Shown piece after piece: positions 1,992 to 5,468 of a stretch of DNA of 52,777 nucleotides. The position numbers were made by a program, and so were the translations under genes. Within the stretch, counting starts at the first letter, position 1, and every line of letters starts with the position of its first letter. Below the pieces are notes generated by a model that saw only the letters and a list, made by a program, of their open reading frames with translations, was not told the DNA's origin and searched no databases. Origin of the DNA: a virus; IMG/VR virus record IMGVR_UViG_3300021960_000095, positions 1-52,777 of that record; one strand, 5' to 3'.

Positions 1992-2065
1992 ATAAAAATA
2001 TTTTTTATTTGATTTGTGCTTTGATTTTAATTAGAGTGACGCTAACAGGAATTGGAGTATTGTAA
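1988..2065 (+). CDS. Tiny single-span membrane peptide (25 aa), GTG start
   Basis: GTG at 1988 overlaps the stop of the previous gene (GTGA), and its own TAA at 2063-2065 overlaps the next ATG (TAATG). The 25-residue product is almost entirely hydrophobic (core IFYLICALILI) with a short basic start, so it would be one transmembrane helix. AGGAGGAAGA lies just upstream. The perfect overlap on both sides supports translation, but such a short frame could be chance. Confidence 0.35.
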   Translation: MNKNIFYLICALILIRVTLTGIGVL

Positions 2066-2859
2066 TGGATAATATAGATAAAGTACAACAGAATAATTTG
2101 ATGCCGTTTGAAGCAATCAAAAAAGATGCATCAGAAATTATTAAAGAAAGAAATAATGCTAGACCAACTGAAGTAGATGCAGTTGGTATATCTGAAGAAT
2201 ATTGGATGGCTGATTTCAGAAATATTTGGAATACAGAGTATCCACGTTCCGCTGAGAAGTGGGGAGAAGATTTTTGGGCTAGTTGGTATAAAAACTTTTC
2301 AGCATTTACAAGACAAGATATTGAATATGCATTCAATGAAGTAAGAAAAGTAAAAAGAGATATGCCACCTAATTTAAGTCACTTATTTGACTTCTGTACT
2401 CAGAATGCTCAGAAAAGAATTAAGTTAGCAGATGTAAATTCAGAAGCTAAATGCAATGATGTAGAGGTGGGGAAATGTGTGTATGGGGACCCGTACTGGC
2501 AACTAACCAAGTACGGGACACACGAATTTATGTTGATGTGTATCTTTAAGTGTGATAAGGCAATTAAAGGTTTTCCCGACAATTATCAACTGAAACAAAG
2601 ACCCGAGCCACAAACTAAAGGTACTTGGTTTAGCAATGTTGCAAAACTTTTATCTAGTAGTGAAGCTCCAATCTTTGATTCGGGTAAAACACAGAAAGAT
2701 AGAAAATTTGAGACTTATCAGTACGCTGAGTTATTTCCCGATGGAAATATTAAAGAAGTTCTGAAAGCACATAACTTAGATGAGAATCTTTCTTTTATAG
2801 AGCAATGTCAACAAATTGCAGAACTTCCAAGAAAAGAGACAATACTAGGCAATGTCTAG
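2065..2859 (+). CDS. Possible replication protein, lambda-P/helicase-loader-like (264 aa)
   Basis: A 264-residue soluble protein. Residues about 60-115 contain a Trp-rich helix (FWASWYKNF), then a segment ending in PPNLSHLFDFC. This W...L...PP.L..F...C pattern is reminiscent of lambda replication protein P and related helicase loaders, which recruit the host or phage DnaB-type helicase. It is the last gene of the leftward block and is followed by a hairpin and a strong terminator. The family assignment is inferred from pattern only; a profile search could overturn it. Confidence 0.45.
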   Translation: MDNIDKVQQNNLMPFEAIKKDASEIIKERNNARPTEVDAVGISEEYWMADFRNIWNTEYPRSAEKWGEDFWASWYKNFSAFTRQDIEYAFNEVRKVKRDMPPNLSHLFDFCTQNAQKRIKLADVNSEAKCNDVEVGKCVYGDPYWQLTKYGTHEFMLMCIFKCDKAIKGFPDNYQLKQRPEPQTKGTWFSNVAKLLSSSEAPIFDSGKTQKDRKFETYQYAELFPDGNIKEVLKAHNLDENLSFIEQCQQIAELPRKETILGNV

Positions 2860-2892
2860 AAGTGGCAAGTTTTGAGATGGTACAATAGGTAT

Positions 2893-2929
2893 GTCGGCTT
2901 CCCTAGAAGTGGAAACACTTCGAGCTGAC
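2893..2929 (+). other. Stable hairpin with GAAA tetraloop in the 3' UTR
   Basis: GTCGGCT (2893-2899) pairs with AGCTGAC (2923-2929, one G-U pair). Inside it GAAGTG (2906-2911) pairs perfectly with CACTTC (2916-2921), closed by a GAAA tetraloop of the GNRA class. A 6-nt asymmetric bulge separates the two helices. It lies between the stop at 2859 and the terminator at 2943, so it would sit in the 3' UTR of the upstream operon. The CTAGAAGTGG motif also occurs at 2857-2866. It may be a processing or stability element, or a protein-binding site. Confidence 0.6.
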
Positions 2930-2942
2930 TGCCCTCCCATCA

Positions 2943-2978
2943 ACAGCTTTGCCCTCGGGCGGAGCTGTATTTTTTTTT
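2943..2978 (+). terminator. Rho-independent terminator of the first operon
   Basis: ACAGCT (2943-2948) pairs with AGCTGT (2963-2968), with an inner GCCC/GGGC helix (2951-2954 and 2957-2960), followed by a run of T (2971-2978). This is a textbook intrinsic terminator and the strongest in the window. It ends the transcript that contains the genes from 1 to 2859. Confidence 0.9.
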
Positions 2979-2984
2979 CTTAAA

Positions 2985-3018
2985 TTGACTTGCATTTTGA
3001 AACGACGTCATCTATGTT
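2985..3018 (+). promoter_or_regulatory. Promoter upstream of the structured RNA region
   Basis: TTGCAT (2990-2995) lies 17 nt before TATGTT (3013-3018). An overlapping TTGACT at 2985 offers an alternative -35. The segment ACGTCATCTATGTTA (3005-3019) recurs with one mismatch at the promoter at 14447-14475, which argues that it is a real promoter element. Predicted transcription start is near 3025, right after the preceding operon's terminator. Confidence 0.65.
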
Positions 3019-3024
3019 AAGAAT

Positions 3025-3436
3025 ATGTCTGTATGAAAAAGAACGGATTGAGTATGAAACAATTAAATAAAGCTAATCGACTGTCTTAAAAAAAGGCCAT
3101 AAAACGGAAAGCTTGAATACTTCGGGTGGGTAGCCCAAAAAGGTCAAGCAAGTACTAATTAAAAATCCTAAAATAAGGGCAAAATCGCTGGCTATTCAAC
3201 AAAACAGCATAAGAACCATTTCGGTGTGTCATCGGTGGGGAAAGTAAGTATTGCACTGACTTTGCGTTGTTGATGTGTCGTTTGTCTAAATCGAAATGTT
3301 AGGGGGGTGGCAGTTTAAAATTGTAGCGTTGCATAGGGAGCAATTGATAAAAAAGACTTAGGTCTCGACCCTTGTAAGTCACTGAAAAGAATTTAATTGT
3401 TTTAAGTTTGGATTGGCCCAGTAGACATACTGGGTC
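3025..3436 (+). ncRNA. Putative structured non-coding RNA or long 5' leader
   Basis: About 410 nt with no convincing ORF but many paired segments: GCTTGA 3111-3116 with TCAAGC 3144-3149 (inner GGG/CCC); AAC-ATTTCG 3214-3223 with CGAAATGTT 3292-3300 (bulged C); AAAGT 3241-3245 with ACTTT 3259-3263; AATTG 3319-3323 with CAATT 3341-3345; GACTTA 3355-3360 with TAAGTC 3375-3380 (inner GGT/ACC); and a 9-bp helix 3415-3423 with 3428-3436 around a GACA loop. It is less AT-rich than nearby genes. It is either an independent RNA or the leader of the gene at 3475. I could not match it to tmRNA, 6S, RNase P or a known riboswitch. An 18-codon frame at 3033-3089 is noted but lacks a ribosome site. Confidence 0.5.
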
Positions 3437-3474
3437 ATCCTTACAAAGAATTTAAGCAAACAGAAAGGGCAGAA

Positions 3475-4146
3475 ATGTCAAGTTATACAGACCAAGATAA
3501 AAATTATACACAATGCGCAAAGTGCGCAGAACCATTGGAACCAAATAACCAAGGTGCATTAGATATTAGCTATAACGGTGGTTATGGTGATTTCGTAGAC
3601 AATTACGATGGGGAAACTCTTTTCTTTCGTCTTTGTCACAAACACGCTCATCAATTTACCAACTGGTTAGGTAATCCATCAGCAATACACCCAAGTGCAG
3701 GTCATTCTCACAATGGTGCAGAAAAAGGTTTTTGGTATGGCCATATTGGTTGGGACCAAAAAACTTGGTTATCACACCTACGTACTTTTACGTGGTGGCT
3801 ATTTAAAACACGTAGCTTTAAAAAAGCTTGGTCTGAATTAGTTTATTCAGTTAAAAGTCACATTACGTGGACTCGTTCTAATATTAACGATTCAAGTACA
3901 CCAGTTGTTTGGTCACAATTCTTTTTTAAATTGTTTTTCTTAGACAATGCTTATGCTGGTACAGTTACTGCATTGAAGCGTAAGCTCAATGTGTGGAAAC
4001 ACCAAAAAGCTAAAAAAATATATCGTAAATACAAGTCTCTTTACTCAGAAATTTGGGAAAGTGCTATTTACGGTAAACTCACAGAATCCGAAAAATCTTT
4101 AATTATGGATATTGGTGAAGCTTTAAAACAGCAAGAAGAAGAGTAA
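3475..4146 (+). CDS. Unknown protein with Cys/His cluster, atypical codon use (223 aa)
   Basis: ATG 3475 follows AGAAAGGG. The N-terminus has C14-x2-C17 and later C54, H55, H57 and H59, a likely zinc site, with a GGYGDF turn between. The C-terminal half is basic, aromatic and helical, ending in an acidic QQEEE tail. All six arginines are CGT, whereas neighbouring genes mix AGA, CGA, AGG and CGT. The gene has its own promoter, a long structured leader and its own terminator, so it looks like an independently expressed accessory gene. It sits where a small terminase could be expected, but I see no TerS-like features. Function unknown. Confidence 0.75.
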   Translation: MSSYTDQDKNYTQCAKCAEPLEPNNQGALDISYNGGYGDFVDNYDGETLFFRLCHKHAHQFTNWLGNPSAIHPSAGHSHNGAEKGFWYGHIGWDQKTWLSHLRTFTWWLFKTRSFKKAWSELVYSVKSHITWTRSNINDSSTPVVWSQFFFKLFFLDNAYAGTVTALKRKLNVWKHQKAKKIYRKYKSLYSEIWESAIYGKLTESEKSLIMDIGEALKQQEEE

Positions 4147-4155
4147 TCTTTTTCA

Positions 4156-4184
4156 AAAGGGGGTATTGCTACAATATCCCCTTT
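4156..4184 (+). terminator. Terminator-like hairpin after the accessory gene
   Basis: AAAGGGGGTATTG (4156-4168) pairs with CAATATCCCCTTT (4172-4184) over 13 bp with a 3-nt loop. Only a short T stretch follows, so termination may be partial or bidirectional. It closes the 2985-4184 unit and insulates it from the terminase gene. Confidence 0.7.
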
Positions 4185-4205: not shown

Positions 4206-5468
4206 ATGCCTAAAGATATTTTAGAGAATGTACAAGCGTCAAAACAGAGGGTATACAATATAACATTCCCCCCTCTTCACGATGCCCAAAAAGAAGTTCA
4301 CGATTCTAAAGCTCGTTGGAAAATACTTTGTGCTGGTCGACGATTCGGAAAATCTCGACTTGGAGTACAGATGTGTTTAGAAATAGCATTAGCTGGTGGA
4401 CGTGCTTGGTGGGTAGCTCCTACATTCGCAATATCTAGAGTTGGTTGGCGTGATATTCAAGCAGCAGCCGCATCTTTTCCAAAAGAAATGGGTGTAAACA
4501 TCAAAGTAGGCGATATGCAAGTAGATTTTAACAATGGTGGCTTTATTGGTGTTCGTTCTGCTGATAATCCACAAAGACTTAGAGGTGAGGGTCTTGACTT
4601 CCTTGTTATGGATGAGGCCGCTTTCGTAAAAGAGGAAACTTGGACAGAAGTACTTAGACCTACTCTTACTGAAAGAAAAGGTTCTGCATTATTCATCAGC
4701 ACCCCAAAAGGAATGGATAATTGGTTTTATAGATTATTTGAAAGAGCAAAAACACAGCCCGACTGGGAGAGATTTCAATTTCCCTCTACTTCTAATCCTT
4801 TAGTTGAAGAATCAGAAGTTGAAGCAGCTAAACAAGAAATTGGTTCTCTCGTATTTGCTCAAGAGTATATGGCTCAATTTATATCTGAGGGTTCTCAGAT
4901 GTTCAAACAAGATTGGTTTAGATATTATAAAGAGGGTGTAGGACAAGTTTTTGCTGATGGAGAAAAATACGATTTAAACGATATGACATTATTTGGTTCA
5001 GTTGACCTTGCAACATCAACAAGAGAATCTGCTGACTATACAGTTATAGGAAGCTTTGGACTTCATCAACCAACAAAAAAACTTTTTATTTTAGATATGA
5101 CCATTGCAAGAATGGAAGCACCCGATATTATTCCAGCAATTAAAAGACACGTTGTAAAAAACAATCTTGAATGGGTGGGAATTGAAAAAGCAGGTTTTCA
5201 GCTAGCTTTAGTACAATTTGCAAGAAGAGAGGGTCTTCCAGTTATTGAATTAAGGGCTGATAGAGACAAGCGACAAAGAGCACTTCCTTTATCTGCTAAG
5301 ATGGAAGCAGGATTAGTTTATCTTCCTAAGAATGAAGAGTACTCTTGGGTAGCTGACGTAGAACGTGAACTTCTCACGTTTCCAGTTGGTGCTCACGATG
5401 ACATTGTTGACTGTATATCATATGCTGTCATACAAGAGAAACGTCAAAGGAAGTGGGAAGCATATTAA
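4206..5468 (+). CDS. terL: Terminase large subunit (TerL)
   Basis: This 420-residue motor packages DNA into proheads using ATP and cuts concatemers with an RNase H-like nuclease. The ATPase domain shows Walker A GRRFGKSR (44-51), Walker B FLVMDEAA (132-139) and the coupling motif STPKG (165-169). The nuclease domain begins at GSVDLA (D267) and ends with AHDDIVD (D398/D399), giving the expected acidic residues. Length is typical. It appears to be expressed from a leaderless transcript. No small terminase is recognisable next to it. The portal gene starts 2 bases after its stop. Confidence 0.95.
   Translation: MPKDILENVQASKQRVYNITFPPLHDAQKEVHDSKARWKILCAGRRFGKSRLGVQMCLEIALAGGRAWWVAPTFAISRVGWRDIQAAAASFPKEMGVNIKVGDMQVDFNNGGFIGVRSADNPQRLRGEGLDFLVMDEAAFVKEETWTEVLRPTLTERKGSALFISTPKGMDNWFYRLFERAKTQPDWERFQFPSTSNPLVEESEVEAAKQEIGSLVFAQEYMAQFISEGSQMFKQDWFRYYKEGVGQVFADGEKYDLNDMTLFGSVDLATSTRESADYTVIGSFGLHQPTKKLFILDMTIARMEAPDIIPAIKRHVVKNNLEWVGIEKAGFQLALVQFARREGLPVIELRADRDKRQRALPLSAKMEAGLVYLPKNEEYSWVADVERELLTFPVGAHDDIVDCISYAVIQEKRQRKWEAY

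Follow-up and report, generated by a model that had tools for sequence, protein, structure and literature searches.

What occupies the one long gene-free interval of this phage, and does it work together with the gene that follows it? The window, by which we mean the whole stretch of DNA analysed, is a virus record of 52,777 bases (a 52.8-kb phage). When open reading frames of at least 40 amino acids were counted throughout the window, the sole internal gap longer than 150 nt was found at 2860-3474 (615 nt), and no frame of that size was found within it. The first-pass annotation had rightly called such a stretch exceptional in a dense phage. It had described the region as a self-contained cassette, in which a promoter, a structured RNA and one codon-atypical gene (g223) lie between two terminators, and it had overlooked a further element just upstream. 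We found that the gap contains two RNA elements, which we call A and B. The features discussed below are as follows.

2065-2859, plus strand: open reading frame of 264 aa in the place of the terminase small subunit, its identity taken from position only
2881-2886, plus strand: putative extended -10 box of element A, TACAAT (TATAAT in most relatives)
2893-2978, plus strand: body of element A, with a GNRA hairpin, the invariant CCCTCCCATC (2932-2941), a GC hairpin and a T-run terminator
2997-3024, plus strand: putative promoter of element B, TTGAAA-16-AAGAAT, scoring 9/12 (the window's own copy is weak, its counterparts in relatives are clear)
3058-3401, plus strand: element B, a structured RNA domain (covariation, conservation, no Rfam family, a single clade)
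3410-3440, plus strand: hairpin 3' of B (helix 18), with five pairs changed on both sides and no U-tract after it
3475-4146, plus strand: g223, a phage-lineage protein of 223 aa with a Cys/His cluster, all of its arginine codons being CGT
4156-4184, plus strand: hairpin between g223 and TerL, followed by AAAGC and no U-tract
4206-5468, plus strand: TerL, the terminase large subunit (Pfam Terminase_6N, E=6.7e-13; PHROG phrog_2, E=1.8e-43)

The interval and its neighbours

The interval lies within the packaging genes. The 264-aa frame has no match in Pfam or PHROG, and it is kept 5' of the RNA (53-82% aa) in the loci of group I, the clade whose TerL is at least 86% identical. TerL is followed by genes for the portal, an S78 protease and an HK97-type capsid, and these late genes run in the same direction. 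The hairpin at 4156-4184 had been taken for the downstream terminator of the cassette, but it lacks a U-tract and is absent from the list of our terminator scan. The distance from g223 to TerL is 59 nt in the window and about 30 nt in some relatives. Given this short distance and the missing U-tract, g223 and TerL appear to form one operon.

Within group I, element A comes first in the interval and is separated from element B by a spacer whose length varies. Element A, at about 2881-2978, is made up of a box resembling a -10 element, a GNRA-loop hairpin, the invariant CCCTCCCATC and a terminator. The box reads TA(T/C)A(A/C)T in all extracted loci. In 33 sequences from group I and far more distant relatives, the stem of the first A hairpin differs strongly in sequence and retains complementarity, and this hairpin carries a GNRA loop in 30 sequences and a UUCG loop in the other three. 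The CCCTCCCATC motif, which looks like an anti-Shine-Dalgarno sequence, shows no variation across all aligned lineages. The scan found the terminator of A at 2943-2968 followed by a T-run, and the T-run is retained in every group-I locus, which bears out the upstream terminator of the first-pass annotation. Element A was found 5' of TerL in nearly all lineages with contigs long enough. We suggest that A would be a separate small RNA with its own terminator, common to the wider phage group, and that it would end the preceding transcription unit. It may itself be a regulator. Candidate pairings between A and B were seen by eye only, and none of them is conserved.

Structure and conservation of element B

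Element B is 344 nt long and is closed by an 11-bp helix, P1 (3058-3068 with 3391-3401). The consensus structure has 104 pairs in 18 helices, 17 of which lie within the closed domain; helix 18, the hairpin 3' of B, is missing or replaced in L045, L046 and L049. We compared this structure with shuffled controls across 15 distinct sequences, which belong to one clade and amount to only about 8-10 independent ones. In these 15 loci, 96.2% of the paired cells in the B structure hold a pair versus 90.3% after shuffling, 27 B pairs have changed on both sides versus 13.6, the cells with changes on both sides number 83 versus 23.1, and the covariation score is 0.174 versus 0.093. None of the 500 shuffles matched B in its pairing, its both-side changes and its covariation score. 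The number of further pair types in B was not above that of the shuffles (417/500). When partners were slid by 1-3 columns, 32-46% of cells were paired, although this control leans toward the structure because the structure was derived from the same sequences. A scan of all column pairs, which is independent of the structure and accepts only fully paired stacks of at least four in which both sides have changed, yielded 14 column pairs. Of these, 11 belong to the B structure and three involve columns already paired there.

Support is not of the same kind throughout the domain. P1 barely varies (7 of its 11 pairs are invariant), so it is supported by pairing rather than by covariation. For a candidate pseudoknot between a loop GGG (columns 288-290) and CCC (columns 321-323), the columns are invariant and the only pair that varies is frequently open. 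In L018, the relative that diverges most, some helices are broken, and there the consensus structure has an energy of -21.6 kcal/mol versus -62.7 for the minimum free energy (MFE) fold. Single-sequence MFE was unremarkable (z -0.95, and z -2.3 to +1.1 in a second analysis), so that the structure could not be shown from one sequence alone; we set folding energy aside as evidence for B, since z values about 0 are uninformative.

The helices of the first-pass annotation are real, with compensatory changes beyond both the shuffled and the slid controls, and homologues of B do contain covarying pairs. No open reading frame is conserved across B on either strand, the frames being broken by indels. 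A search of the window against Rfam 15 (4227 families, including group I and II introns, tmRNA and riboswitches) gave no match at gathering thresholds, and below-threshold searches of the interval in the window and L018 gave chance-level matches only (13-22 bits in the window). A self-splicing intron was considered and rejected, as no intron family matched and the flanking frames are complete. A literature search of limited extent turned up no RNA described from this position. The earlier suggestion of an undescribed RNA class thus agrees with the strong covariation, the missing Rfam match and the lack of a conserved frame, and we have hardly any doubt that B is a genuine structured RNA of a new family.

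Sequence conservation of B is high. We compared it with eight relatives: the nearest is 97.1% identical to the window, six more have values of 91.6-95.1%, and L018 has 79.3%. Across the seven that are more distant than the nearest, DNA identity is 80-87% for TerL (62-70% at third codon positions), and amino acid identity is 55-73% for the 264-aa protein and 56-69% for g223. Thus, beyond the nearest relative B changes more slowly than its neighbours' DNA, except in L018, where the identity of B equals that of TerL. As for the nearest relative, its TerL and g223 resemble those of the window slightly more than its B does.

Element B is present, always in the same place, in every group-I member with readable sequence there. 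Wherever present it lies directly 5' of g223-TerL, and never elsewhere; its spacing to g223 is 68-171 nt over all loci and 68-73 nt in most. Outside group I, neither nhmmer --max nor a covariance model of the central domain recovered it. B-like short-pattern matches in L070-L073 were dismissed as chance (nhmmer E 0.06-2.6, and one 23-nt covariance-model match of 21 bits), as were those in L084-L088 (best E=0.085). Relatives whose TerL is 66-70% identical are without B, and there are related phages that have the same g223-TerL arrangement and no B. These results suggest that the function of B is dispensable to the group as a whole, or that something else performs it there.

Other RNAs were observed in the interval of relatives. 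An 83-nt tRNA-like domain is present in relatives without B (L148:1766-1848, and L003 at about 2240-2320). It matches both ends of tmRNA (RF00023, 42.1 bits, E=1.6e-15; the gathering score is 47) and is without the mRNA-like part; ARAGORN reported none in L003. It is possible that this domain is a mini-tmRNA or a tmRNA decoy. A third element, C, lies between the small-terminase position and A (L025:2948-3180, L103:1639-1915, L142:1995-2150 and L145:1734-1930). By eye it has an acceptor-like stem of 7 bp, in which compensatory changes occur, a hairpin that resembles a T-arm and has a loop of 7 nt, and an end like ACTA or ACGA, after which comes a terminator. In L116, L126, L133, L140 and L150 (minus strand, about 130-260 nt 5' of A), A in reverse complement is similar to part of C, with nhmmer E values down to 6e-9, and from this resemblance A and C could pair. 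Across related phages, the region that separates the terminase genes looks like a hot spot for RNAs of different kinds.

Inheritance and predicted transcription of B and g223

The gene next to B has a history of its own. Its six arginine codons are all CGT, as the first-pass annotation had remarked along with the Cys/His cluster, versus mostly AGA in its neighbours. The protein has no match in Pfam, PHROG, PDB, or the isolated phages and GTDB genomes searched, and its AlphaFold model is of low confidence (pLDDT 59.6). We found it in about 80 viral loci; where the contig includes TerL, it almost always stands immediately 5' of that gene. Between the window (3475-4146) and L003 (L003:4119-4790) g223 has been exchanged: DNA identity is 97.2% over 3484-4151, TerL is about 70-71% identical, and B is absent. 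In L003 and L004 together g223 is 96% identical and stands without B. Conversely, L045, L046 and L049 have B beside a g223 that is only 49% identical, across a longer and different gap. RNA and gene are thus not one mobile unit. The comparison indicates that g223 is exchanged alone between phages, which its odd arginine codon usage fits, and that it is a lineage gene, not a moron; neither sporadic presence between conserved genes nor movement as a unit was found. Hence the self-contained cassette falls, because RNA and gene are inherited separately. The idea of mobility holds for g223, which moves horizontally alone, but not for the RNA, since B is fixed in group I.

The promoter proposed for B in the first-pass annotation is weak in the window, where 19 promoter-like sites were found versus 23 expected by chance, but stronger boxes stand at the same place in relatives. 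L018 has TTGACA-17-TATGAT (11/12), ending 18 nt before P1, and L013 and L014 have TTGACA-17-TA(G/A)GAT at the same distance (18 nt). In L005 and L006 the boxes are TTGACT-17-TATTGT, 110 nt upstream, with an inserted leader between them and B. The five loci score 9-11/12 and share a fixed 17-nt spacing. The leader inserted between promoter and B was observed in L005, L006, L007 and L010; by eye it has mutually exclusive helices, AGAAAGGGAG/CTCCTTTCT versus GGGAGTTAG/CTAACTCCC, and is attenuator-like. On the 3' side, the aligned loci have no terminator in the space from B to g223 and no clear U-tract after B (L018 has a weak T-rich stretch 3' of helix 18), in contrast to A with its T-tract terminator. 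Hence B probably forms the 5' end of the transcript of g223 and TerL.

A model for element B and its relation to known phage RNAs

Based on this arrangement, we propose a model for the action of B. Its own sigma70-type promoter would make B as the 5' end of the terminase and late-gene transcript, in the order B, g223, TerL, portal, protease and capsid. B would then be a leader RNA that acts in cis, its target being either its own transcript or the RNA polymerase that has just synthesised it. We infer transcription and cis action from the promoter, the lack of a terminator, the invariable place and the independence from g223. For instance, B is kept though g223 varies to 49% (L049), which suggests that its constant partner is the operon or transcript, not g223. 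That B acts in cis on the late operon is the reading we favour, with a confidence that stops somewhat short of even.

In its simplest form, B would be an RNA-based processivity or antitermination element like the HK022 putRNA, only far larger, and late transcription starting at B would run on through the head genes. Antitermination specifically is a doubtful choice of mechanism, put forward by analogy. Among the findings that speak against the leader and antitermination view are the size of B, whose 344 nt far exceed those of known antitermination RNAs, the weak promoter of the window's own copy, and the related g223-TerL phages without B.

Alternatively, B could be a stable trans-acting RNA that is processed from the transcript, as an oligomer or in an RNP with host or phage proteins, in the manner of GOLLD and ROOL, which are phage-encoded and of unknown function (PMC12286853). 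B is large, multi-branched, extremely conserved and unrelated to the neighbouring gene sequence, and it has its own promoter, which in L013, L014 and L018 would place the 5' end about 11 nt ahead of P1. Yet it has no terminator or obvious 3' end, it is always in cis with the terminase operon, it matches neither GOLLD, ROOL nor any other Rfam family, and no tRNA was found in the window. We consider this explanation possible but rather improbable.

It is less probable still, and in our view unlikely, that B governs the translation of g223 or TerL as a leader made of a riboswitch-like domain, a hairpin and a ribosome-binding site. The layout would suit such a leader, as the promoter, the closed domain and the hairpin at 3410-3440 are followed by a Shine-Dalgarno (SD) sequence and the g223 start at 3475, the B-g223 spacing is nearly constant in most loci, and four relatives carry the extra leader with its mutually exclusive helices. 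Against it, g223 is found nearly unchanged where B is lacking (L003 and L004) and B persists beside the divergent g223 of L045, L046 and L049, no conserved pairing between hairpin and SD sequence was seen, and no known riboswitch matched. The earlier proposal that g223 is the product controlled by the leader RNA is weakened by the same two groups of loci.

B, together with A, might also be the RNA part of a DNA packaging machine, as in phi29. It sits between the gene in the small-subunit position and TerL, it follows the TerL clade, and a packaging RNA has been reported in a phi29-like genome, such phages using one (PMC5823994). But no pRNA matched in Rfam, and relatives with TerL 66-70% identical lack B. 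Moreover, TerL here is of the ordinary Terminase_6 type, for which we know of no packaging RNA. A place in the pRNA family, or beside a phi29-type packaging ATPase, was rejected on these grounds, and a packaging role of this kind seems quite improbable.

A DNA-level element (a pac or cos site or an operator) with incidental RNA structure is very improbable: the region adjoins the terminase genes and has inverted and repeated motifs in the wider group, but DNA recognition does not explain why many B helices show compensation across paired columns, or why GNRA or UUCG loops persist in A while the stems that bear them differ in sequence. Last, the mobile accessory cassette (moron) of B and g223 is almost certainly wrong, as the aberrant arginine codons and the single-gene exchange that favour it are outweighed by the separate travel of RNA and gene, which in L003 and L004 refutes a joint unit, by the retention of g223 beside TerL throughout the phage lineage, and by boundaries that include a promoter but no downstream terminator with a U-tract.

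Few large structured phage RNAs have been described (GOLLD and ROOL), and B adds one. It is another large phage RNA, previously undescribed and unrelated to these two. It is among the best-conserved sequences of its region and keeps an unvarying place where the late operon starts, a position that makes its function testable with simple reporters. More tentatively, B could be the first large RNA (344 nt) to act together with an ordinary viral terminase or the phage late transcription machine, at the packaging/late-gene switch of uncultivated phages whose relatives hold other RNAs (A and the tmRNA-like C) in the same interval.

How does B compare with known systems? Like GOLLD and ROOL, it is phage-encoded, large and highly structured, but it is smaller, gives no covariance-model match, is not near tRNAs, and lies between terminase genes in a co-transcribed layout without a terminator of its own. 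Like the phi29 pRNA, it is phage-encoded and adjoins packaging genes, but the type of phage, the packaging motor, the size and the architecture are different. The put element of HK022 is about 70 nt long and has two stem-loops. B, with 17 helices in its closed domain, is not a compact element of that design; it is about five times larger, multi-branched and unrelated, and any such activity of B is putative. The HK022 putRNA works as nascent RNA alone and serves early genes (PMC9378689). Like it, B stands just 3' of a promoter that opens a phage operon, and it would likewise act in cis.
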